From Megalobrama amblycephala (taxonomy: Eukaryota; Chordata; Actinopteri; Cypriniformes; Xenocyprididae), in assembly GCF_018812025.1 (NCBI RefSeq), contig NC_063053.1, positions 14,302,623 to 14,366,622 on the forward strand: a stretch of 64,000 nt of DNA, given 5' to 3'. The position numbers and the translations under genes were made by a program. The notes beneath the pieces are model-generated. The model ran no database searches. It had not been told where the DNA came from and saw nothing but the letters and a program-made list of their open reading frames with translations. Positions 3,001-64,000 of this stretch are shown piece by piece. How positions within the stretch are numbered: the first letter of the stretch is position 1; each line of letters starts with the position of its first letter.

Positions 3001-6000
3001 GTTACCCATCACTTAATGATTTTGTTCAGCTGTTCCTGTTTAGCTCCCTCATTTAGTCTGTGTATAATATACTCCCTGTTTTGTTCAGTTGAAATTCTTT
3101 GTCCGTTCTTGTCGATGTTAAGTGGTTGTGTAGCGTTGTTTCTTCTGCCTAAGCTGGTGGATTATATTAAAGACTCCTTTGTTTCTAAAATGTATCGGTC
3201 TCCCCAAAATATTAAGTAGCTGTTATTCAACATTGGTATTAATAAAAAATGTTTCTTGAGCACAAAATCAGCATATTAGAATGATTTCTGAAAGATCATG
3301 TGACACTGAAGACTGGAGTAATGATGCTGAACATTCAGCTTTTTGAAATGTTCACAGGGTATTGTATTTTAAAACATATTGCAATAGATAACAGTTATTT
3401 TAAAAAGTTATAATGTTTAACAATATTACTGTTTCTGCTTTGATTAAGTAAATGCAGCCTTGGTGAGCATAAGAGACTTCTTTCAAAAACATTTTACCAA
3501 CCCCAAACGTTTGAATGGTAGTTTATGCTGAGTGAAACAGGATATTCCCTGAAAAAAAAGTTTGGTTGGACTTTATCAATAGTTTTGTCTTGATTTTGCA
3601 TTGGAATGATGCATAGCAATCATGCACCACAAGACCAGGAATGTTTATTAACAAAGTATATAGGATGCATTTTGATTTCATGTTGACTTATTTTGCCAGT
3701 CCATCTGTCCATCCATCCAGCCATCAAATTTCTCTCTTTAGTTTTCTCTGTGACCCCCCCACCCCCACCCCCCGTGATTCACTTGACCCACAGAACAGCT
3801 CCTTTGTGCTGTTGTGAGTGAGCAGGAGATTGGAGCTGGCATATCAGCCACTCATTCATCCAGGCATCAATTGGAATGAGCTGAGAATGGAGAGTTAATG
3901 CATGTTTTGTGTGCCAGGCCTGGTAATCCACCCTCAGTCTCTCCAAGCCTTTGTTTTCCCATGCTCCCTTCCTTTTCCTCCTGCCGTTAGTTTTGCTTAC
4001 CCCGGCACAAAGCAACAGTATCATGCATTCCTTAAAACATGTAAATCTGAATTAGAAAAGTTTTTGCAAAACGTCTTTATCCATATTTTTTTCTGCCATG
4101 AAGGTTTTATATGATGTGACCTAATATTACGCATAATTTAATGAAGCCTTAAAGGGATAGTTAACCCAGAAATGAAAATTCTGTCATCATTTACTTACCT
4201 TCATGTAGTTCCAAACCTATATGAATTACATTAATTAAATGGAATTTTCCATTTAATTTTCTGCACAGGTCAGAAGTCACTTTATGGGGATGTTGCCCCC
4301 AGCACATGAACACTACCATCACAGTGGCCTTTCTAAAGGTGACAGGACACTCCCCTTGCTAGATGAGGCAATTAGACTTGACATTTATAGAGGAAGATGA
4401 CTCTTAAAACAACCACAGCACTCTAGTGGCTAGCACCCATTTACACAGACACAATTAGTGCAGCTGTCAAGCAGGAAAAAGACTACCCAATGTGGGTAGT
4501 TATATATACAGAACATTTTTTTTTAATAAAGGAGGAAGAAGCCTATCATTTAAAGCTATTTTGGACTTATCGCACCCATCTAACTGCAAACATATTTATT
4601 CCAACCTCGATTTAACCAAAGGTTGGACGGACGTATCCAGACCAGCAGAATTTTTTTTTTTTTTTTTTTTGCAAAACCTAGTGTGGCTTATTTTTACAGG
4701 CCTGTACCCCAATAAGCAAATGAGACAGACTTCAGTTATTTGTGAATTTGTGCCAGAGTATGAGAGCTATTCAGTTGGGGGATGCAGTTATATTCAGTTC
4801 ATAAACATGGGCAGTGAACTTGAGCTGGTTAATTATTTTGAGAAAAAGATTATCAAATACAGTGCCATGTAGTCTGCAAGAAGGGCAACTACAATCTGTC
4901 ATATTTGCTCATGAGTATGTGCAAAGTGCCTGGATATAGTACATCTAGGTGTCGGATTGCATTGATGATCATGTTAAGCTCATCCACAGTGTGGATGTGA
5001 CCACAGTAGTGGAAACACAGCTGTCACATACCAATGCATTTTTAAAGATATTACACACAGTAGCCACACGCTGCAAGGTATTCCTCTAACAATGGCACTG
5101 ATTTATGAGACACCAACTGATTACTGGTAACACTTTAGTTTAGGGTCCAGTTGCTTATTAGCATATGTATTACTATGATATTGGCTGTTTATTAGCACTT
5201 ATAAAGCACATATTAATGCCTTATTCTGCATGACCATATTCTACATCCCATAATCCTACCCAATACCTAAACTTAACAACTACCTTACTAACTATTAAGA
5301 AGCAGTAATTAGGATTTTATTGAGACAAAAGTTGTAGTTAATAGTGATAATTGGACCCGAATCTAAAGTGTGACCGAATTATCAAACCCAGATTGAATTT
5401 GCAGGTTGAATCCATATTTTTTTATTATTGTGTAAAAATATGCATAATGGATAAACATGATCAAATAAGATAAAAACTCTTGAGCACTACACTCTTATTG
5501 AAAGCTGAAAGCATAATCAAATTAAAACTGGGGGGGAAAAAACTAACTAATAAGCAAACACTGGGGGCAGTAAAAGATTTTGTGTTTGCATAATAATGAT
5601 CAGCTTTACACTAATAATAACTAGATGTCCTTAATTATTAGTCGATCCCTATATTATTATTTGTCTTGTCTTTGATGTACCAGAATGAGAGCCGGTTAAA
5701 AACGAGAGATGCAGGTCAGTAGAATGAAAAATGAGCGAGGTCTAGAGACGTGTTTTTTAAAAGTTGCATTTCTTTTAACTTGAGCTCTGCAATTTTAGAA
5801 CATAGACTAGACGCTGCAAAAGACATGAGTTAAAGATGTCCATCTAGCATGTGTTTACATTGAAAACAATGAAAAAGTAGCACAGTGGAATGGAAAAACA
5901 CATTCCAACATGAATCAGCATGAATTCAATGTTGGTCCAGGCTGGTTTATGCTGGTTAGAGCTGGCTAATGCTGTTATAGTGCTTGTCTAGCTGGTGGAC

Positions 6001-48810: not shown

Positions 48811-50031
48811 ATATTCACAGTTTCTGACATTATAGTGTATCCTGACTGAAGACTGGGATCTTTCAAAAACATTAATTGTACCGACCCCAAACTTTTGAAC
48901 AGTAGAGTAAACATTGGCAGTTTAGTAACTAACACCTCTAAACATCCTCCTGCACTGTGTTGACACTCTTCCCATTATTTTAACCTTGAAAGTTATGGTT
49001 TCAGCCCCGTATTTCATTCCTGATGCAAGAGAGAAACTGTTCCGTTGTGCTTGTCTAAAATAGTATCTTCACCATACCTGTGTACACTTTCAAATTTAAA
49101 GTAGTTTTTATACCATTTTGGTTTGAACCTGATAAGTTGTGGGATATCTCATCCATGTCTTTTGCAGCAGGCCTCAACTTTCCCTGGTTGTGATCCTGCT
49201 TTTTGTGTACCACTTAACCTAGCACACACACTTAGCCGCAGCTTCTTGTCTCTGTGTGTAGGTGCCTGCACAGCTATCTTGTCCCCTGCCTTGCGGAGGC
49301 TAGCTTTGTTCCCTTGTTATCCAGTCAGGGATGTGTGAAAGTGGGGCACAGGTCGGGGCTCTTTGTCCCCCTTGGGCAAATCAGAAGTGACAGATACCGG
49401 CCCACTCCACCACTAATTTGTCCCCCCCTCAGCACAGACTTCACTCAAGGCCACTAATTGCAGCGAGACGCACAGGCCTACAAGGGAACAGACACATCAC
49501 GTTATTAACGCTGGAAGGGGCCAACGGGGTAATTGCGGAACATCCTTCATCAAATTATTTGGGCATGTTTCAGCATTCAAGAGTAGCGCCGGCCTGACGG
49601 GTTGAGGGGTCAAGCCCAGAAAAAACAAGGGGGCAATGATGTTCTGTGCTACCAAGAAAAATTACAACGTTGCCTAATCAGAATCGGACTATGTGCATTT
49701 TTCATAAGATTGGGAATTTATTATTATGTTTAAAGATATTTGTTGAAGGTCTAAATATTACCCTGCAGGTTCTTTTCTTCTATTATGTTACACTTTATTA
49801 AAAAAAGGTCATATAGGACCATAAAAAATGAGTTCACAAGATTACATTATTCACATGATTACATTGCAGACCAAAGGTAAGCTAGTTTGAAAGTGAAACC
49901 TCATAAAGTGTAAGTAAAGCAAAGCAATTTTGGACTATATGTTTGTAGACATTGTTCAGACATCTAGAAAGATGCATTGAGACTGGTATGAACTCACCAC
50001 ATGTGCTTTGTTTTTTGTTTTTTTATTCTAG

Positions 50032-50302
50032 TGCCGTGGACCCCGTGAGAAGGGACCTTTGAGTTTGTAGTGTCATCGCCATCCTCCTACCTCTTCCTCT
50101 TATCCTCTGCTTTTGTCCCTTGAGCCATATCTTTGATTGCTCCACCTGTACGTTAGTGTTCACTGGGATTTTTAAGAGCATAAGCTTCCGTCATCACTGA
50201 TCTCACCCTCAAAGGTTACGGCAAGGCTGACAATGGCACAGCTTTTGTGTGTCACTGTGGTTTTGGCTGGAGTCTACCTTCTTCTCAGGCTCTGCGCTGG
50301 AG
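50032..50302 (+). CDS. bmpr1a: bmpr1a exon: 5'UTR end, start codon and signal peptide
   Basis: Acceptor TTTTTATTCTAG; 201 nt of leader with no ATG; start codon at 50233-50235 in good context (A at -3, G at +4); coding part 50233-50302. It encodes [20 protein letters not shown] then CAG plus one base, a typical signal peptide (human [20 protein letters not shown]). Donor GTAAGA. Confidence 0.93.
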
Positions 50303-53300
50303 GTAAGAGTGTTTTTTCTTCCCTTTGCACTAGGGCTGGGCGGTATATTGAGTTTGTATGATATATCGATATATTTTTTTGTATACGATACGGAATGAGG
50401 CAATACTGTTTATATCAATATACAGTAGTTTTATATGAGCGCATCTGAAACATAGCGGTGGATGTCGCAGAATGCTGTTGTGGGAAAAATACATAATACT
50501 CTTTGTCCTAAACATGAGACATGCTTAATATTAAGGGCTTTAAAAATAGCCTAACTCATAAGATTAAGATATAGTTAACATGTAGGCTATAGTTCAAAGT
50601 GGCTTGCCCCGTCAGATGCTCTGAGTCTGACAGATTCATGTGCTGACAGATACTTGTGCTGGTTAATGCATTTGTGATGTGGTGTCTTTTTCATTGCATA
50701 ACTTACATTTCACAGGTATATTCTCCATCTGTCAATGTTAGAAAGGAATACAAATATTTCCATTTTGCTGTCAGGAGTGGACGAGCCTTCTGTTTACGAA
50801 TCTCCTGTAAACTCTATAGACTTGCGTGAACGAGCGCCGCCACATGCATTTCCGCCAAACAGACGGAGCGCAATAGAATAGGATTGCCATAATTCTGACT
50901 AAAATATACATTTTGCTAAAACGGTTGTTGTTGAACAATAAATGTGCCATATGTAGAATTTTAAACCTACAAATAAGTGTATTTTTTATTATAGCAGTAA
51001 AGTGACTATTTGGGGTAGGCTAATCAAAATAGCATAATATAGCTAATTAGTCTGTGCTTTTGTTTTTATTTTCATTTTTAGTCTTGAATTTAACTTTGCT
51101 TTAAAAAGCATTATTTTTATTTTTAGATTGTAATGTTACAATGTTAGAATGTAAGGTAATTTTCCCTTTTTTGCATATATATAATCTGCCAGACTACATG
51201 GTTACATTCACTACATTTGTTTTAATAGACTTCAATATGAACACTGTTTGTAGGACAACATTAGGCATATTAAATTAAGATCTTTTTAAAAATAAATACA
51301 GATTTGTTTATTTGTTTTTTTTTCTAAATCCAAATAGAAAAATGTAGAAAATACCAAGATATATACCGTATATCGCCATTTAGCCAAAAATGATGATCCT
51401 TCATCCGTACGGACCAAGCCCCACGGTTTGGCACGCATGTGATTCGTGGATCAATTGCAAGTTTAACTGCAATAGAGTGAAAGGTTATCATTTGCACGTG
51501 TTTTGTCTTGCTAATTCAAACCATTCCAGCGCTAGAAGAGGCAAAAGAGGATTTCGGTATCGCACTCCACTGTTATTGGTGCGCACAGACGCACATACAT
51601 ACAAGGCTCGTGCGCACACACACAAAGAGAGAGGCGCGTTTCAGATAGCTCGTGAATTCTAAATTGATTTCTCTTTCACGTCCTCAATGCACTTGGATGG
51701 ACAGATAAACGCATTATGTCAGTCAAAATACCCTCTCGTTTCTGTACACAAAAATTAATACTACAGTTAGACCTTATACTTTATTTGTAACTTTGTTGTA
51801 TTTATCTATGCTTGTAATTAGTGTACAGTATTTGTTCTTTTTAGTCTGTTCACTTGCCTTTAATAATGTATTAGTTAGGCCAGTAGTGTCTGCTGTTGTA
51901 TCCGAGTAATAAATGCAAAGTTACTTCCACCCCCCAATTCTTTTTTTTTTTTTTTTTTGTGCTGATCCGAAAAATGATCCGATCCGTGACTTAATAACCG
52001 TGATATGATCCGAACCGTGAGTTTTGTGATCCGTTGAACCACTAAAACTGATACCTTTTGTTTAATAAAAACGCCCTCCCTGAATCAAACTAAACTCTGT
52101 TTTCCCAATGAACTCTGATGGTTGCCTGTGGACAGTCAATGAGCTGTGAAGGCAAACAGCAACAACCGATTGCTCGGAAAGCAGTTTTAGGGCACAGGGA
52201 AAAAAAAGAGTTTGAGTTAAAACTTGCCTACAGCTTTATACTTTAGCTCACATTGTTTATGTTAACACTTTAATTCTGAATGTCTGTCTGTGTGCAGACA
52301 ATAGTTTGTGCTGAGGTTTAGAACACCGTCTGATATCTCTGATGTGTTTACTCATGCCAGGAAGTTCAAAAGACATCTTTCCCACCGTGACTCACTCCTG
52401 AACCATGAGCCTCTCAGAGGCCCCCCACTAAAGGAAGCTGTTGAAGTGATTGTTGCTACTCTCTCTTCCTTTTTTAGCACATTAACAATTTCCTCTATGA
52501 CACTGTCACAATTGCTTGTGGGTACAAACTATTCCAAACACTCTGTGCTCTCCGGAAATACTTTAACCCTTTTGTGTTGTTGATCTTCAGATTTAAGCCC
52601 CTAATAAGTGTGCTCAGATTTTAGATATTACAAATGGCTTCCTTGCTGTTCCACACTGACTAAAAAACATGATGAGTTTATAAATGTTATTATTATTAAT
52701 GTATAATAATTTTATTCACCTAAATTTTTGAGTTAACAAATTAAGCTTTTATTTATTATTTATTTATTTACATAATAGATACATAATAGATATGTATGTT
52801 TGAGAAGTTTTAAATCATCTTATTTAATCCAGACTTAGATTGAACACTTGCCACTGCAGATTAACTCTGTAGTTTTAATGGCCTTTTTTGTTCTGTCTTT
52901 TATTTGATTCTGATGAATTAGTGGAGAGTAAGGGAAGAAGTCTTGTAACATGCTCAGTAGTCAGATTTTCAAACAGCTCAGTTTTCCTTTAGAGTTCATA
53001 TTATATCAAACATCAGTCTAATGTCCTTGTCGGTGTATTTTTGTACAGATGCAGCAGAAAAGTAGGAGATGGTTGAAACCAGAGACACAGCATGAAGGAA
53101 AGGACATTTGACTTTTCAATTCGCTGTTGTTTCTCCCAGTGTTAGAGTTGTGTAACAGCTGGTTAAATACCCCTATAGTACATCTTTTTTACCTTGCTCA
53201 TCAGATGCACCCCTGAGATGTAATTTCAGGCAGGTGTCTGCACCTCTGAAACATAATCTTCAAGAAACAGAGAGGTGACATTGGCGACTGAAAGCCCTCA

Positions 53301-56300
53301 GTTGCCTCCATAGTGCAATGGTATTTTTTTTTTCCCCAAGCAATTGTATACTTCTACCTGGACTGAATAGTGAATGGGGTTAGCACTCCTCCTAGGGGAG
53401 AAGAAAACGTGTTTAAGTGCAGGCAGGCTTTTAACTTGCTTTCCCCGAGGTGAACATATTAAAATACAATTTTGCCCAAGAAATGACACATTGACAATTT
53501 ACTCCACTATATCGACTTAATTCAATTTTATTTTACATAATGTTAGTTTTCATTGCTTCCAGATGAAGGTTTCTGCTACTTGAAACTACCATTTCGAATA
53601 CCATGTGTAAAGATTGAACAAACAATTAATGTTAAGTGCGATATATAGGCTTGTCAAAGAAACAATGAATTGCTCTGAAAGGAAACGGAGACTCAAATCT
53701 GCTAGAGAGAGAAAGAGAGAGAGAGAGTAATGGTGTGCATCTGCTAGAGTCTCATTATGGGGGGATGCTCTGCCAGACCTCAGACTCCACTGTAACTGGC
53801 GGCAGAATTAGGCACACATGTGAATGTGTAGGCTCTTGTGGGCCCCGGACACATCCATCATCACCCACAATCAGTCACAGTCCAGCAGTGGGCAAAGACG
53901 CAAAGACTTTGCCCAGTCAGAAAGACTACTTTGCATCTTTAAGAGCTTGAGAGTTTTGAAATCCTGACATTGTTGCAAGTTACACTTTCTGCCACTCCCA
54001 TAGATTTTTGTACTGTTGCATTGAAAACCAGATCCTTCAAGGATTCCCTCAAGCACTGACCCTGAGTGGAGAAAATGAAGAAAAAAAAGGAGTAAAGACT
54101 AGAGTGATAGAGAAGGGATCCCCAGGGTTCCTCTTTGGGAATTTGCCCATTTGATCATTGTCCAGCCTTCTCCTTATGCGAAATTTCCACGCTGGCCCTG
54201 TGCATCAGGGTTTTCCGCCATAAAGGTGGACTGTCTCCATTAGCCTGGGCTCAAGGCCACACAACCTCTTACATTTGCTTTATGAGTAGCTCAATTACAG
54301 AAATGACCTCATTGAAATCCCTTGCTAGCAGTTGAATTAGATTAAGTCTAGACAGTGTAATTCTCTTTAAGAGTTGATTTTTATAGTTTAGTAAAGTAAC
54401 AGGAGACAGTGTGTTTGATCTGCTTAAGAAAGATATGGAGTCTGTCCGCACCCTGAACGAGAACACTTGAGAGGCTGAATGCATCATTTAGTTTGCGGTC
54501 TAGAATCGTTGTGACAGACTGAGCATATCAAAGGCAGCGTCTCACAGCTCCACATGCTTTATCTGGACTTTTAACTGCACTGCCTCCCTCAGCTCTGTTT
54601 TCTCAGAGTGTTTCTCCAGTACCCTTATTTGTGTTGTGATCAACTGTCTTGCTAATGTTTCCTGCTGTCACGCATTCTGTCTTTGACCCCTTAATGACAC
54701 TGCTTTGGAAGACCGCAACAGTTTACTTGTTTGTTTTTTTTTTCTTTTTAAAAGTAAAAATCATAAAAGTAAATACAGATTTAAGTCTTATGAACCTCAT
54801 TACATAAAATCGTTCATAGAGGGTTAATACTAGAGTAAATTGATTTCTTCTGCAGAATGTAAAAGCAGATGTTTAGAAGAGATCTGTGTTTTTTGTCCAT
54901 ATAATTAGTTAATTGAGTCCAAAACAACATTGGATCCCACTGACGTTCGTTTTATAAAAATAGTACGTACAGCATGGTAAAATGTTTCACATTGATATAA
55001 AAAAAAAAAAGTGATTCAAATAGATAACTTGGGAGTCACAGATTCATTAAAAGTAAACATTTGTGAATTAGACATCAGGGGTCATGATGTATGTTTATCA
55101 TTGCATGCTGCCAGCGAAGACAACACAATAGAATGATGCAGTTTTCGAACCCTTTTAACTTGCTACATTTAATTCAAGTATGTTTACTTTTGCCGTGGCA
55201 CTGAAGATTCAACAGTGTGATATGCTTAAACAGGCTAGGAAAAGTAAATGTTCTTCATGATACCATATTTCTAGTGGCATTTGCTTCAGACTGCCTATTT
55301 TGTTAGGTTCATACTGTTTATATTGAGTTTTGTGTACTCAAGCACATTTTCAGTGTATGTACATATTAGGCGATCCATTGAATTATGCAGTAAATTGAAT
55401 ATCAGAAGCTCCTTTATCTTGACCAGCTCTCTATTTAATCACTGAGTCCTAATAGAATTAGTCCAAGAGGAGAGTCCAGTCTAATTGTAAGATAGGCAGC
55501 ACACGGAGAGGCTATATAAGACCGACTCGTAATGGGATCTGAGGATGGAATGCAGCTGATAAAGAGAGCGCCGTGTTGCCCTGCCGCCCAATCTCACAAA
55601 CTGCTGCTTTGTGAGTGATTAGCTGTTTTACCGACAAGTCTAGACTGGAACATCTGCAGTGGAGTCATGCTCAACAGAAAGCTACAGCAATACATACTCA
55701 TGCACTGTGACAGGATAAGAAGACCGTGAGATCAGTAGCAACATGTCTCAGAGGCCTTTTATTTAAACTGAAATTCAAATAAAGAGAAAAATAAATGTTT
55801 GTGAGGGTGTGAAGCAGAAAGGGACATGGTGATCTGGATGTACATGCTAGTTGGTCTGGATTTGAACAGGAGCAGGTTTGCTGTCAAATACAGAGGAGCA
55901 AACGATGGGAAATAATAAATGTAGGACATTGTTATATTGAGGATTGACACAATACCTAAATTTCAGTAGTCAATAATTTTAATGATTATCAATTCTATTT
56001 CAGTACTATACCAAAGACTAACGTCCTATTAAAATAAAATTAAACCAATATTATGTAGACCTCTTGTAATTTGAATTAAATAAACATTGCTTCAACATTT
56101 ATTATTCAAGTAAATATTAAATGCACTTTGTTTATATTAAAACCTCACCAACATGCGCTCAACATGAACAGCCACATTACTCACAAAATGAGGGTTCAAA
56201 AACAGCCAATTATCAACCAGAACAGGTTACTGAATTGAGTATAGAAAGTTAAAAAGTTCATTTTTAATCAATTTAATGCAAAGTATTCATTTTAAAATCT

Positions 56301-59300
56301 AAAAATCTTCCTGACCCCAAACATCTGAACAGTAGTGTAGTAGAATTTCTGAAACCACAGACGCAGGTTTATGAAACGCTACTGGTTATTTAGTGTCTAT
56401 GCGCACCTAGCTTGTCATTGACTGTGTTTTGTCACTTACAGCAGGGCAGAATCCTGACCACGTGCTGCTGGGCACTGGAGTGAAGCCTGGCTCAGACCCC
56501 AGAAGGCCTGGGGACGACTCCACTGTGGCACCAGAAGATGCTGCCCGCTTTCTTAGCTGCTACTGCCAAGGTCACTGCCCTGATGATGCTAAGAACAACA
56601 CCTGCGAGTAAGTGTCACAGGCTATGGCACATTTTTAAGTGGTCATTGTTTAATGTGATTAAATGTTTGTGCTTTGTTTATATGTATTCAAAAAAATTTG
56701 CTTTTTCTTTGAAACCCAACAGGACAAATGGGCAGTGCTTCGCCATCATTGAAGAAGATGAAAATGGAGATGTGATCTTAAGCTCAGGCTGTATGAAATA
56801 TGAAGGCTCCCACTTTCAGTGCAAGGTAAGGGAAGTTGTTTCTCTTAAGTGTCTTGTGCTTTTAGTTGCATTATTAAATACTTTGTAAGTTTTACTCACT
56901 TGAGGCATGGATTTGTCACAGGATTCGCAGTTTGCACAGACACGTCGAACCATCGAGTGCTGCCAGTTAGACTTTTGTAATCGAGACCTAAAGCCAGAGT
57001 TGCCACCTCGAGACTCAGGTAATCGTCAGTACTGTCTGCCTGGCAGTTGCGTGGCATTGTAAGGTTATTTTCTGTGAAGATTGTTGATTTAAAATGTTTA
57101 GCAGTGTAATGTTATCTAGTTAGCTGAAATAAATTGCAGTGAAAACTGAAAATAACTTTGTCTATGAAGCATTAGAATCATTCAAAAATTAAAAGACATT
57201 AATACTTTTATTCAGCAAGGTTGTAATAAATTGATCAAACGTGACAGTAGAGACGTGTCAAAATGTTACAAAAGATTTCTGTTTAAAATTAATGCTGTTA
57301 TTGATCCATTATTTCTATTCATCATAGAATCCTGAAAAAATGTGTCATGGTTTTCAGTAACAATATTAAGCAGCACAACTGTTTTCAACAGTATAATTTT
57401 AAAATGTATTAACAGATATATGATTAAATTTGCCCATTTATATTGTTTACAGAGCAAGTAAAAATCTCAACAGACCTGCTGATTGAGCCCTGGCTAACCC
57501 AATGCCTTAATGATGGACATGTGTTTTCTCTTGATCTCTTTGCAGAACCACCAGACCCTCACTGGCTGGCCTTCCTCATTCAGTGTCTGTGTGCTTCTGC
57601 ACCCTCATCTGTGTCACTGTCATCTGTTATTACAGGTGAGATCATCACCGCACTGAAGCTCTTACATATAATAGCCGCTTGTGACGTGCCTGTTTTCCCA
57701 CATCACTGAACTGCTATGATTGTGCACAGCACTGTTGAAAACACATGCCACCCACATCATGGCCTGTTGTTGTTAAAAGACAAACACTTCTGTTACTGCA
57801 AGTAGGGGCAAGACTCTATACCTTGGCATGGGTACACAACTGTGAAAGAAGTTTGCCTTTATAACAAATGCATCTTTTAAAGTGTCTGTTTACTGAACTA
57901 TCTGTTAAAAAGTGTTTTGTCTTGATATTCAAAAAGGAGTCAGTAAGGATCTTTCTGACGTCAGGCATAGATGTAAAAAAACATGTTTGACTGTGTCCTG
58001 TGTCAGGTATAAGTGGCAGACAGAGAGGCAGCGCTACCACAGAGACCTGGAGCAGGACGAGGCCTTTATCCCAGCAGGAGAATCTCTAAAAGATCTCATC
58101 AACCAGTCTCAAACCTCAGGCAGCGGCTCTGGGCTCCCCCTGCTGGTGAGAAATCTGAAATGCAGACTGTAGGATTTAAGTGTCAACAGCTTGCTTTTTT
58201 TCACTGTTTCTATTCACATCTTACAGGTGCAGCGCACCATTGCGAAGCAGATCCAGACGGTGCGCCTTATTGGAAAAGGGCGATATGGAGAGGTGTGGCT
58301 TGGTCGGTGGCGGGGGGAGAAGGTAGCAGTCAAAGTGTTCTTTACTCGAGAGGAGGCCAGCTGGTTCAGAGAGACGGAGATCTACCAAACCGTGCTCATG
58401 AGACACGAGAACGTACTAGGTACACTTCATGTCATTCAAATTAGTGAGGTGTTTTTAATTGTGTATCAATGCCATGTTTTCCAATGTGACGCGATTCTCT
58501 TCAATCTGCCCGAAGGCTTCATTGCTGCTGACATAAATGGCACTGGAGCCTCTACACAGCTGTACCTGATCACAGACTACCATGAGAACGGCTCTCTGTA
58601 TGACTATTTGAAGTTCACCACTCTGGACACACAGGCCTTGCTCAGACTGGCCTACTCTGCAGCCTGTGGCTTGTGTCACCTGCATACGGAGATCTACGGC
58701 ACACAGGGAAAACCAGCCATCGCTCACAGAGACTTGAAGAGCAAGAACATCCTCATAAAGAAAAACGGCACCTGTTGCATCGCTGACCTTGGGCTTGCTG
58801 TTAAATTCAACAGGTGCATTGTCACTTTGCATTAGTTTCATTGGCTAGTTTTAAGTGATTTGTTCAGTCATTTTGAGGAAGTAACTTTTTTGTTGTTGTT
58901 GTTGTTGTAGTGACACAAATGAAGTGGACATCCCACTGAGCACACGTATGGGGACCCGACGCTATATGGCTCCAGAAGTCCTGGACGAGACTCTGAACAA
59001 GAACCACTTCCAGGCCTACATCATGGCGGACATCTACAGCTACGGGCTGGTTATATGGGAAATGGCCCGACGCTGTGTCACTGGAGGTATTCATGAGACA
59101 ATGAAAAATTCACTGTCAAATGTTTCTTTTATTTTGCTTTATGCGTATGTTAAGAGCCTTTCCGTATCCAAGCCATATCATTTTAAAGTAGGCATATGAC
59201 GGTATCAAATTTTCATGTTGCGATTAATTGCTGAAGCTTTTATCACGATATTAAAATAAGTTGCAAAAAAATGTTGTCATAGTTTAACAGGTTTAAGAAC

Positions 59301-61853
59301 TCTTTTTGTAATAAAACAAAAATAACTCTGAATGTTTAAATACAATAATACACTACAAAAAATATATAAAGTGAAATTTTCAAACAGATTAAAATGCAAA
59401 AGAATTAGGCTATAAAGAACAACAGATAACACTTTACAATAAGGTCTCTATTTAATGCATTAACTAAGATTGAGCAACAGCTACATATGTTACAGAAAGT
59501 TTTATTTTTTGTTAATGTTAGTTTAGAAACACAACTGATCATTGTTAGTTTTATCTCAGGTCCATTAAATAAGTTCTTTTGATTTTAGTAATGTTATTAA
59601 ACAGTAACTAAGAAATGAACATTAACTAAGAATAATTAATGCTTTATAAGTAATTTTCATTGTCAGTTTGGTAATAATGAATTAACATGTTAACTAATGA
59701 AGCCGTATGACTTTAAGTTTTACTGAACAATAACAAATAATCAGAACATTTCTAATCATTAGGGCATGTTGTAGTCCAGATTAAAATATAAACATGTTTA
59801 GGTTTGAAAATAAATATCCTTTTTAATTATTCAGTTTTTGGTGCTGTGATGAACAACACTGAGATTACAAAAAAATTAAAGGCAGTTTGAAGCATTTCAA
59901 AAACTTCACCAGCACAGTTACTTTGTTTGCACGGTTTCTGTGGTAACCGCTGCATGCTGCTGTTCCATCAGCGCCCTCTGCTGTCAGAGAGTGAACGTGC
60001 ACTTTCATTCAGCGCGTCTCCTTCACTCGTTCAGTCATGTGCTTCTCATGCATGATGGGCTTGTTTACATCTGAGCGCGTGTCCTTTTGACGCAGAATAC
60101 AGCGGTGTTGTACATTTTATATGAGTGATGGGTAAAGTATTCTTAATTGCATTATAAAAAATAAAAAATTGGTAATAAATTATTATTTACGGTATTCTGA
60201 AGTGCCCACGATTACAATATCGTGCATATTCATTCATCGCATTACCGAATATCGGCACAAGTCTATTTTAAAGTTGACATGAAATGGAAATTCAACCTAT
60301 TTCCTAAATGCATCTAAATGAACTTATTGTGAACGATTCAATCATGTATTTTTTATTTAAATCTTTAAATCTTAAAGGGTGATTTCGCATTATTTACTCA
60401 CCTTCATGTTGTTCCAAACCCATAAGACTTTTGTTCATATTCGGAACACAAATGAAAATATTTAATGAAATCTGAGAGATTTCTGTCCCTCCATCGACAG
60501 TTACGCAACTGACACTTCAAAAAGTTCATAAAGAGATCTAAAAACTAATCCATATGAATAGAGTGGTTTAGTCCAAATCTTCTGAAGAGACTTGGTCGTT
60601 TTATACGCTGAACAGATTTAATTTAGGCTTTTATTCACATATAAACTTTCATCAACGCACACATCAGATATGGTAAATGGAAGCTCAAGAATGCTTGCTT
60701 GATGTCTGAGAACCAATGAGGTTCATTCTCATATGTTAAACAGCACATTTCAGCATCTGAACCAATGAGGTTTGTTCTTGCACTTCAAGCAGGTTCGGTT
60801 GAGCTCGTTTATGTTTGCTGATCAATGTTTATGTGTGAATAAAAGCCTAAATTCATCATATAAAGCAATTTGGACTAAACCACTTTATTCTTTCTGAACT
60901 TTTTGAAGCGTCAAAGTGGTAGTTACATAGACTGTCAGTGGAGGAACAGAAATCTCTCTTTTATTTCATTAAAAATATCTTAATTTGTTTTCCGAAGATG
61001 AACAAAATCTTATGGGTTTGGAACAACATAAGGGTGAGTAAATGATGACAGAATCTTCATTTTTGGGTGAACTATCCCTTTAAGATCTTCTGGTGAAACA
61101 AGAGACTACTCTCTGATGACATATTCAGGACTTATCTAGTCCTTTAGTCAGCTTAAACTCCGCCCCTTTTTCACAGTCAACTGTAAGCTTGCATTCAGGT
61201 CTGCCTCTATCCAATCAACAACTGATGAATTGAACCAAGCTTTACATTTTTCCCCACCCTACATTTTTCTTTTTGATAAATATTTTCACTCAGATGTACA
61301 TAACAATAAAAAAGAGACCTGTCACTACTTCTGTTACATCACAACTTTAAGTATTTTGATCTAAATCTTTCTAAAATAAAAATGGTTCCTGTTGTGGATG
61401 TTTACAGAATTCAAACAGTTCATGAATACATCCATTGATTGTTTCCCAGGTATTGTTGAGGACTATCAGCTACCATATTATGAGATGGTCCCATCAGACC
61501 CATCTTATGAGGATATGCTGGAGGTTGTGTGCGTCAAAGGACTGCGGCCCACCGTATCCAATAGATGGAACAGTGATGAGGTGAGCCAGCAAGCAGTTTC
61601 TGACCAGCAGATGGCAGTATATTTACAGATTTAGTGAATATTTGTAGCTTTGCATAGGAGCTTCAGGTCAGAAGTATGTATTGAAGAGAAATGTATGTTG
61701 TGATCTGAAAAGAGTTTGTCTCCGCAGTGCTTGAGGGCCATGTTGAAGCTGATGTCAGAATGCTGGGCCCACAATCCTGCATCACGCCTGACCATCCTAC
61801 GAGTCAAGAAGACTTTGGCAAAAATGGTGGAATCTCAAGACATTAAAATCTGA
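50233..61853 (+). CDS. bmpr1a: bmpr1a (BMP receptor type 1A, ALK3) coding region, with an apparent 1-nt frame break
   Basis: Type I receptor serine/threonine kinase of the BMP pathway: binds BMP ligand with a type II receptor, is phosphorylated in its GS box, and phosphorylates Smad1/5/8(9). Eleven coding exons are seen: signal peptide, extracellular ten-cysteine domain, membrane segment, GS box ([11 protein letters not shown]) and a full kinase with [30 protein letters not shown] and APE motifs. Coding exons sum to 1589 nt, one short of 1590 (529 residues plus stop; human 532). The shortfall is in the transmembrane exon 57546-57635. Read literally, the frame shifts after residue 157 and stops at 58087-58089, before the kinase. 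All other exons are in frame. Either this copy is damaged or the sequence has an error at that point. Confidence 0.96.
50331..51386. mobile_element. Transposon-like element, GGGCTGGGCGGTATAT ends
   Basis: Left GGGCTGGGCGGTATATTGAG; the right end, ATACCGTATATCGCCATTTA followed by GCC, is an imperfect reverse complement. About 1.05 kb without a transposase frame. Confidence 0.6.
51388..52045. mobile_element. Transposon-like element with GATCCG-rich 3' end
   Basis: Starts ATGATCCTTCATCCGTACGG and ends with repeated GATCCGAAC/GATCCGTGA motifs. It directly follows the previous element. Family not determined. Confidence 0.5.
56442..56607 (+). CDS. bmpr1a: bmpr1a exon: N-terminal part of the ligand-binding domain
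   Basis: 166 nt, donor GTAAGT. Encodes [20 protein letters not shown] and, at its end, [20 protein letters not shown] then C plus GA, carrying the first four conserved cysteines (CYC, GHC, NTC); human has CYCSGHCPDDAINNTC. The acceptor is a tandem NAGNAG (ACAGCAG), so the exon may start at 56442 or 56445, which adds or drops one Ala. Confidence 0.95.
56723..56825 (+). CDS. bmpr1a: bmpr1a exon: middle of the ligand-binding domain
   Basis: 103 nt, acceptor GAAACCCAACAG, donor GTAAGG. Encodes [20 protein letters not shown] then [14 protein letters not shown], with three further conserved cysteines. Human: [20 protein letters not shown] then [14 protein letters not shown]. Confidence 0.96.
56922..57018 (+). 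CDS. bmpr1a: bmpr1a exon: end of the ligand-binding domain
   Basis: 97 nt, acceptor TTTGTCACAG, donor GTAATC. Encodes [20 protein letters not shown] then [19 protein letters not shown] and the final CN motif complete the ten-cysteine three-finger fold. Confidence 0.95.
57019..57545 (+). other. bmpr1a intron before the transmembrane exon
   Basis: 527 nt; the middle (57170-57400) is a degraded copy of the ACTACCGTTCAAAAGTTTGG fold-back family, recognisable by the TTCAGCAAGG, TCCTGAAAAAATG and TTAAGCAGCACAACTG blocks. Confidence 0.65.
57546..57635 (+). CDS. bmpr1a: bmpr1a exon: transmembrane segment, one nucleotide short (apparent frameshift)
   Basis: 90 nt, acceptor GATCTCTTTGCAG, donor GTGAGA. 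In the incoming phase it reads [12 protein letters not shown], the expected entry to the membrane helix (human SIRWLVLLIS). In the phase needed by the next exon (R, then [10 protein letters not shown]) the rest reads [18 protein letters not shown], clearly the remainder of the helix and its basic stop. The two halves are in different frames, changing at about 57578-57582 (ATTCAGTG). One missing base there explains it. No alternative GT or AG close by restores both halves. Confidence 0.9.
58007..58145 (+). CDS. bmpr1a: bmpr1a exon: juxtamembrane region and GS box
   Basis: 139 nt, acceptor GTCCTGTGTCAG, donor GTGAGA. Encodes [35 protein letters not shown] and [11 protein letters not shown], the GS box that type II receptors phosphorylate. 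If the upstream frameshift is real, translation meets TAA at 58087-58089 inside this exon. Confidence 0.96.
58227..58419 (+). CDS. bmpr1a: bmpr1a exon: kinase N-lobe
   Basis: 193 nt, acceptor CACATCTTACAG, donor GTACAC. Encodes [40 protein letters not shown] and [20 protein letters not shown] then ENVL. Glycine loop GKGRYGEV and catalytic lysine in VAVKVFF are intact. Confidence 0.97.
58516..58813 (+). CDS. bmpr1a: bmpr1a exon: kinase hinge, catalytic loop and DLG motif
   Basis: 298 nt, acceptor CTGCCCGAAG, donor GTGCAT; the intron before it is only 96 nt. Encodes [60 protein letters not shown] and [12 protein letters not shown]. Catalytic HRDLKSKN and the DLG form of the Mg-binding motif typical of type I receptors are present. 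At 58548-58553 it has Ala-Ser where human type I BMP receptors have Ser-Trp (GTGSWTQ). Confidence 0.96.
58911..59086 (+). CDS. bmpr1a: bmpr1a exon: activation segment and APE region
   Basis: 176 nt, acceptor after a (GTT)n run ending TTGTAG, donor GTATTC. Encodes [40 protein letters not shown] and [20 protein letters not shown]. The APE motif and the [15 protein letters not shown] helix match human closely. Confidence 0.97.
59087..61449 (+). other. bmpr1a intron before the C-lobe exon
   Basis: Filled by a probable element from about 59186 to 60265 (CGATAT/ATATCG-type ends, with an inner ACACTTTACAATAAGGT repeat at 59427) and by a complete 712-bp TTAAAGGGTGA-ended inverted-repeat element (60372-61083). 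A CTCF-like motif lies at 59971-59984. Confidence 0.6.
60372..61083. mobile_element. Inverted-repeat element, TTAAAGGG / GAACTATCCCTTTAA ends
   Basis: 712 bp. Left arm includes ACTCACCTTCATGTTGTTCC; right arm includes its near complement GGAACAACATAAGGGTGAGT. Same family as 11522-11973 but with a different interior. Lies in the bmpr1a intron. Confidence 0.82.
61450..61580 (+). CDS. bmpr1a: bmpr1a exon: kinase C-lobe
   Basis: 131 nt, acceptor TTGTTTCCCAG, donor GTGAGC. Encodes [20 protein letters not shown] then [20 protein letters not shown] and SDE. Human: [20 protein letters not shown]. Confidence 0.97.
61728..61853 (+). CDS. bmpr1a: bmpr1a last coding exon
   Basis: 126 nt including TGA at 61851-61853. 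Acceptor GTCTCCGCAG. Encodes [20 protein letters not shown] then [20 protein letters not shown] and I. Human ends [13 protein letters not shown]. Confidence 0.97.
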
Positions 61854-64000
61854 TCAGCGGAGTGGCTTTTATTTCGTTTTTGACATCTTTGTCCCCTTCA
61901 GGAGAAACAAGCTCTCTTTTTCTGTTGGATCAGACAATGGTGCCTTTGCTGCTTTCTGTGAAAGCTGTATCATTGCAAAGTTGGATCAGAGGATTACTGC
62001 AACAGACACAAACAGTAGAGTGGGACCTTCTGGAGATTTTGGGAGAGAAAGTAAACCCCACTGCCTTAAAATACACTCAGTTGTTCTGAATATGTTTCTT
62101 TAGATTCTGGGATAAACCTCCTGCCATATGGATGAAATGCTGTTGACTTCTCATGGAATCTGTGTAAAGCATACTGTGATTTAATGTATGACATGTAAAT
62201 ATATTATAGTAGTAAATGATCTGAAAACAGCAAAACAATATACTATCAATATAATCTCGTTCAGTTAACAGCCATTGTAGAATATCTAGGGGAAGATTCT
62301 GTGCCTCTTGCAGCCTAATGTGTGGCTTTTGAAAATCTTAATTCATCTATATAGTAGATCTTCTCTCAACATGTTTTCTGATGAAAATAACCTGTTTTTA
62401 TGAAATGAGACCCCTGACATAAGTTTGAAGATAAAGAGATGCATGCCATTCATGATTTTGTTGCATGAAACAATATATTGTTTGCAATGTTTAAAGCATG
62501 CCATTTTTAATATCCTCAGAATAGAAAACATTGTCAATTGAATCTTTCACTAAGAATTGACCATATTTTTGGAAAGTTAACCAGCTGTCAAAAAGCTCAT
62601 TTTAATTAAGAAAACTTTTCATACTCACTGATGTTTGCAGTCGAGGGGGATCTCCTACTAGCAGTGATTAGGCAATCTTGAATACCACTTCAGAGTTGCC
62701 AAACTCAATGCAGTGTTTGTGGGAGGGATATCTGCTTTCTGGTTGGTGTGATAGAGTTGATACATTCCTGAGTTTCCTTCATTCAGAGAAGTTGGGTCTT
62801 TTTTTTTTTTTTTTTTTCTTTTTTTTTGGTACAGGATGCTATCAGTATAAATGTGACTTGTGACTTGAAAGTGCAAATTTTTGAGGATTTGGTGATATTC
62901 TGATCGTATGTCTTTGCCAATGTTATTAATCAAATTTTGAACTGTGTTTGCTTGTGAAGTGCCCAAAGTTGAAGGGTACGACCGCAAGTAACATCTGTTA
63001 GTCATCAGGTCTTAATGTTTCAGTTGGGGCTGCCAAAATACGATCTTGGTAACTAGTATAGTCCAAAATACACATTATTGTTACGTAACATGTTTACAGA
63101 ACTCCCATGCAGATTTAATTTTATTATTCTTTTAAAAAATGCAGTATTGTATCCCAGAATACTTGTTTATTATTCTTAGTGCCATTGAAAAGACCAATGT
63201 GTTTTGTTAATAGCAACAAAGCAACAATTCACAATAGCTCTTTACACCAATATCTGGGCCCTTAAAGACAGGAAGTGTGAATGTACAATGCTTTGATAAT
63301 GTCAGTGCCAGACTAAGGTGCTTTGTCATGATTTTAATACAGTATGCCCTGAAACGCCAAAAGGGCATCTTGATTAAAACCAAACAATTTAAATAAATAA
63401 TAGATTTAAAAAAAAAGGAAACATTCTCACCTCAGTGTGGTTAACTTCAACATACATTACAATATGCTAGAGAAACACTAAATTTAGTGTATATGAAAAT
63501 ACATTTGTAGCTTTTACTATACAAGTAATCTAAAGTTGGATCTGTGGAATCTATATCAAATGCTTTTCTGTGGCTGAAAAGGGATTTTCAAATGGACCGT
63601 CAAGTTAGCATTTGATTGCATTAAAGAAAGAGAAATCATCTTATTGTGACTATTCCAATGGTTTTGCTTCCATCCCCTACGGCTTCTGTTCTTCACCCGA
63701 GAACCGACAATGCGGCTTCTCACCATAATTAATTATGAAGTATGTTGATTGGACATGAGTTTTAAAATACTGTATTTATGTCTGTAGATATTTCAATGTG
63801 CTTTAGTATCACCCAGCCCACCTCTGTGTAAAATATTAAATGACCTTTACTGTCTAATTTGGAAAAATGTTTTGGTTTATTCAGCCCCATGTTGAAAGGG
63901 TGCCTTATAAGTAGGCCTCATACTCTGTATAATATTTGTCCATGTAATCTTTTAAAAATATATAATTTTAGTACACAATTTCTTTTCTCTGTTTTTGGTG
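61854..64000 (+). other. bmpr1a: bmpr1a 3'UTR and flank
   Basis: AT-rich sequence without further exons. The first clear AATAAA is at 63392-63397, about 1.5 kb past the stop, suggesting a long 3'UTR; earlier sites of weaker form are possible. A poly-T run (about 62800-62827) is present. Short ORFs here lack coding similarity. Confidence 0.5.
63392..63397 (+). terminator. bmpr1a: Candidate polyadenylation signal of bmpr1a
   Basis: AATAAA about 1.54 kb after the stop codon. Further sites beyond the window are possible. Confidence 0.35.

Follow-up and report, generated by a model that had tools for sequence, protein, structure and literature searches.

In the 64,000-nucleotide stretch of DNA of Megalobrama amblycephala analyzed here (the window, C10:14302623-14366622), the coding sequence of the BMP receptor gene bmpr1aa is interrupted by a one-nucleotide frame break in the exon encoding the transmembrane helix. 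The sequence as given contains the break; whether the fish itself carries it is another question. Most probably, the base was lost through a residual one-nucleotide error in the consensus of a hybrid PacBio RS II/Illumina assembly, and the fish's own gene would be intact and would encode an ordinary type I BMP receptor. What is observed directly is the frame break itself, the intact state of the rest of the gene and the occurrence of solitary one-base losses elsewhere in the same assembly.

Gene model and frame break

The gene was identified as bmpr1aa, the best listed relative being the bone morphogenetic protein receptor type IAa of Puntigrus tetrazona (94% over the whole query; the entries are cluster representatives, which may hide species closer than Puntigrus). 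Recomputed coordinates and phases give eleven coding exons (Table 1) of 70+166+103+97+90+139+193+298+176+131+126 = 1,589 nt, with AG at 10 of 10 acceptors and GT at 10 of 10 donors. The CAGCAG acceptor of exon 2 (window 56439-56444) allows two proteins one codon apart, and the total becomes 1,586 nt if its other half is used. In a 516-aa model obtained by splicing within exon 5 (see below), the domains of a BMP type I receptor (BMPR1A/ALK3), PF01064, PF08515, and PF00069/PF07714, are all found above cut-off, and the Activin_recp, GS, and kinase scores are about those of the Puntigrus protein. Upstream of bmpr1aa, the window carries ldb3a (8350-38901, + strand).

Table 1. Coding exons of bmpr1aa and related positions in the window.
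Feature	Position	Strand	Basis
Coding exon 1, start codon and signal peptide	50233..50302	+	ATG, GT donor
Coding exon 2, extracellular domain; with its CAGCAG acceptor it could also start at 56445	56442..56607	+	Activin_recp domain
Coding exon 3, extracellular domain	56723..56825	+	Splice borders
Coding exon 4, extracellular domain, ends in phase 1	56922..57018	+	Splice borders
Coding exon 5 (90 nt, lacks one base), transmembrane helix	57546..57635	+	Phases; comparison with Puntigrus
Presumed site of the lost base at the Ile/Ser boundary, ATTCAG	57578..57583	+	Frames; Ser in relatives
Hypothetical 52-nt exon from the in-exon AG 57582-57583; frame restored, 13 residues of the intact receptor dropped	57584..57635	+	Acceptor score
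Coding exon 6, juxtamembrane region and GS box	58007..58145	+	Splice borders, domain search
First stop in the literal reading	58087..58089	+	Translation
Coding exon 7, end of GS box and start of kinase	58227..58419	+	Splice borders, domain search
Coding exon 8, kinase	58516..58813	+	Splice borders, domain search
Coding exon 9, kinase	58911..59086	+	Splice borders
Coding exon 10, kinase	61450..61580	+	Splice borders
Coding exon 11, TGA at end	61728..61853	+	Splice borders

The recomputed phases agree with the original prediction that the transmembrane exon is one nucleotide out of frame, with 90 nt where 91 are expected, that the other coding exons are in frame and that the total falls one short of 1,590. 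The Puntigrus protein (P0002) has 529 aa, that is 1,590 nt with the stop codon, which equals the window total if exon 5 is given 91 nt. The incoming frame of exon 5 yields EPPDPHWLAFLI, and the remainder of the helix, VSVCFCTLICVTVICYYR, is read only in the frame that exon 6 needs. Hence, no continuous frame runs through the single transmembrane helix in the sequence as given. Judging from the remaining bases, the missing one would lie at the Ile/Ser boundary of LAFLI-S-VSV. At this site, a serine is found in 42 of the 45 relatives having the transmembrane region, and the models of the other three have a gap.

When the sequence is read literally, the first stop is codon 203, where it had been predicted; another 56 nt of exon 6 and five further coding exons follow it. 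An mRNA with a stop upstream of five coding exons should be a target of nonsense-mediated decay, and this prediction, made conditionally for the literal frame, therefore holds. The same position bears on the proposal of a shortened, secreted-like receptor acting as a decoy, made of the ligand-binding domain and an altered tail. The literal 202-aa product does retain the Activin_recp domain, and the proposal stands insofar as the shifted stretch is poor in hydrophobicity; against it counts the transcript, which should be a decay target. We regard such a decoy as extremely improbable.

Copy number and the sister gene bmpr1ab

The original prediction also considered that the genome might be polyploid, with one of its bmpr1a copies beginning to decay. 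This idea is not supported. At the DNA level, exon 5 matches the assembly only once, and in the protein search the next best gene is on C20, so that a second, polyploid copy of bmpr1aa is not supported; the assembly total of 1,109,882,926 bp fits a 24-chromosome bream. A protein search of the same genome (89 matches, the best 83 of 148 candidates being scored) gave bmpr1aa once (C10), bmpr1ab once (C20), two bmpr1b-like genes (C2 and C4), as well as receptors that are less closely related. There are 19 differences between bmpr1aa and its Puntigrus counterpart; when carp, Siphateles, and Triplophysa were used to decide the branch, two were assigned to the window, six to Puntigrus, and 11 were unclear. 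The substitution rate of the gene is not raised. Neither relaxed constraint nor a further disabling change was found in branch substitutions, splice sites, or domains. Thus, bmpr1aa resembles unitary or polymorphic pseudogenes in having a frameshift and a premature stop, but it differs from them in lacking any other disabling change or sign of relaxation, and it is known here from one assembly.

The homologous exon of the other bmpr1a gene is likewise out of frame. The transmembrane exon of bmpr1ab (locus L054, C20:18318000-18327999; 4328-4425 of the reverse complement, corresponding to C20:18323575-18323672 on the minus strand) is 98 nt long, although 97 would keep the frame, and PPLWNAHLLAFL and ISVTVCCFTLVAITVVCYYR are read in different frames. 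This break is a gain of one nucleotide, opposite in sign to the loss in bmpr1aa, and lies roughly a codon away from the position homologous to the bmpr1aa lesion. When L054 and window 49001-64000 were searched for another, overlooked transmembrane exon, only the known halves matched well, all other matches being at chance level. In the two bmpr1b genes, the transmembrane exons are in frame. As for four further receptor loci, helix and GS box share a frame in L059 and L062, L061 has just a segment resembling a helix, and L060 shows none clearly. Programmed ribosomal frameshifting was considered and rejected, since the offsets are opposite (-1 in bmpr1aa, +1 in bmpr1ab) and since the serine residue is present in most relatives; slippery sites were judged by eye.

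In zebrafish, according to PMC3183088, animals lacking both bmpr1aa and bmpr1ab are without exception C4-dorsalised and form no cardiac field; the C4 dorsalisation of double mutants is also given in PMC7478894. Because this double loss abolishes the cardiac field, and the sequenced bream gave blood, both bmpr1a lesions can hardly be real nulls, and at least one of them is probably not.

These data weigh on the possibility of a true young null allele of bmpr1aa, homozygous in a doubled haploid fish, with its mRNA degraded and BMP signaling carried by bmpr1ab and bmpr1b. A very young mutation would also look like a single-base loss in an otherwise intact gene. Moreover, PMC3183088 describes zebrafish lin/bmpr1aa mutants without cardiac defect that reached adulthood, and most bmpr1ab mutants as free of a morphological phenotype. 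However, the bmpr1ab gene expected to compensate is itself out of frame in this assembly, maternal-zygotic lin mutants are worse than zygotic ones (PMC3183088), and, in our judgement, the rates observed make an assembly error likelier than a rare null that happens to be homozygous in the sole sequenced fish. A young null is therefore rather unlikely.

The original prediction held a base-calling error to be equally possible. Its possibility stands, but not its equal weight, as the present evidence makes it the more likely. What remains unusual for a consensus error is the coincidence between paralogues. Two independent errors that fall, in two paralogues, within 5 nt of one homologous site would arise by chance with a probability of about 1e-4 to 3e-3, a partly hand-calculated figure that depends on the error rate and on the number of paralogues counted. 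We know of no mechanism for an error shared by bmpr1aa and bmpr1ab. A shared cause, for example a context-dependent error downstream of the CACTKGCTGGCCTTYCT stretch that the two genes have in common, amounts to the artefact interpretation with its cause named. It would account for a -1 and a +1 separated by about one codon of that exon, and the in-frame helices of bmpr1b, L059, and L062 are consistent with it; the lesions are nevertheless opposite in sign, and we find a shared cause very improbable.

One-base breaks elsewhere in the assembly

The assembly analyzed is very probably M. amblycephala V2.0, which, as stated in PMC8476165, was obtained from a double haploid fish with PacBio RS II and Illumina data (BioProject PRJNA343584) and corrected with Pilon. 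If this is so, a heterozygous bmpr1aa allele is excluded. Reads of this fish would be expected to show the missing base. Residual indel errors of long-read assemblies create false pseudogenes, as stated in PMC12007338. The case of bmpr1aa is alike in that a solitary one-base change is found in an otherwise intact gene of a PacBio-based assembly having other such lesions; it differs by the unusual coincidence with a paralogue and by being known from the consensus alone.

Solitary one-base breaks were found at three other places. Two of them are in protocadherin exons of a cluster located on C2 at about 43.67-43.70 Mb. In L028, a run of five G is contracted to four, an intact tandem copy showing no mismatch to it within 150 nt, and in L064 a run of five T is contracted to four, with 0 mismatches within 100 nt of an otherwise identical copy. 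Overall, 17 of the 150 protocadherin first exons scored (196 candidates) have an open frame shorter than 790 aa. Eight of these 17 were inspected: besides the two solitary contractions, six are more diverged, with at least one frame change each, and some of these six may be real pseudogenes. The third place is an epiplakin-like exon of the plectin family with 1,023-nt repeats (C9, about 25,841,000-25,855,300), in which the frame changes once within 140 nt; read from the spacing of the matches, this is a one-nucleotide frame change in near-identical repeats. The three solitary breaks could themselves be young mutations.

The long exons of the assembly are mostly clean and the frame-break rate is low, which counts against a consensus error, as does the position of the bmpr1aa lesion in what would be no more than three consecutive T. 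Indeed, two fn3-array (titin-like) frames run without a stop for 5,750 and 5,911 codons (best 150 of 1,300 fn3 candidates scored), and plectin-family open frames of at least 689 codons, about 54 kb in total by hand sum, contain one break. The rate thus perhaps ranges from 1e-5 per nt (one break per 89 kb or so, calculated by hand) up to 5e-5 per nt in the protocadherins, among which there may be real pseudogenes. At such rates, about 2 to 7% of genes of the size of bmpr1aa are expected to be broken (hand calculation; the titin-only upper bound is 13%), so that one frame error in such a window is not rare. A control with 7tm_1 genes was of little use, 147 of 1,766 candidates having been scored in a way that favors intact genes. 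Within the window, ldb3a served as a local control and shows no in-exon frame change in its matched exons (four relatives compared, two of them in detail; the first 31 residues are unmatched). Compared with the proteins of five species, ldb3a matches that of Chanodichthys best, with 98-100% over four exon matches, identity being lower where the matches enter introns or repeat-length differences.

Possible splicing around the lesion, and zebrafish alleles

A real lesion might also be bypassed at the level of splicing, either through an acceptor at 57583/57584 within exon 5 or through an extension of exon 4 with exon 5 skipped, leaving the helix short or absent. The in-exon AG, which follows CCTTCCTCATTC, scores 7.4 on the matrix used, the gene's own ten acceptors ranging from 3.4 to 10.0, and a yUnAy motif is present at 57558-57562 with its A 22 nt upstream. 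Its use would remove 38 nt including the lesion and give the 516-aa frame with GS box and kinase. In addition, most of exon 5 is absent, with neighboring exons present, in the models of 5 of 118 relatives (four fish and one snake). However, exon 6 is absent almost as often (4 of 116 models), and the loss of just the 13 residues is seen in none of the 45 relatives having the region, in a 90%-clustered database where isoforms may be hidden. The corresponding AG of bmpr1ab scores 2.3, and 141 of 3,715 AGs on this strand of the window score at least as high as the in-exon AG. The helix left would have about 17 residues, which is marginal on the hydrophobicity scales used. With exon 5 skipped, the four in-frame alternative donors of exon 4 are weak (-4.5 to 5.0), and this route was rejected. 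A transcript using other sites to restore the frame, named in the original prediction as grounds for abandoning it, can be drawn on paper with the in-exon acceptor, but we found no support for its use. Within a limited literature library, no published BMPR1A splice isoform lacking the transmembrane domain and no soluble form was found; a search of the same library for M. amblycephala bmpr1a gave only grass carp work. Altogether, a bypassed lesion is very unlikely. That both bream genes are truly broken yet functional, their transcripts omitting the first part of the exon or the whole helix, is hardly to be expected; were it true, bream Bmpr1a would have a short or missing membrane anchor.

The relatives' models without most of the transmembrane exon (P0021, P0037, P0041, P0094, and P0097) are vertebrate type I receptors. 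In the Esox and coho salmon models, GEAPG follows exon 4 in both, perhaps by read-through.

If the missing base is, as we favor, an artefact, gene-loss calls in the bream reference need read support, and both bmpr1a models may be wrong where they are used for annotation, primer design, or guide design. If the lesions were real, a fish without either intact Bmpr1a frame would contradict zebrafish genetics. The zebrafish alleles of bmpr1aa, the lin missense mutation and the p3 CRISPR allele, affect the same gene as the one broken in the bream sequence. They differ in that they were chemically induced or engineered and studied in animals, whereas the bream change is known from the assembly alone. 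The p3 guide, given in PMC7478894 as GGTATAAGTGGCAGACAGAG, matches window 58006-58025 letter for letter, where bmpr1aa exon 6 begins; the p3 allele was thus aimed just after the membrane helix.
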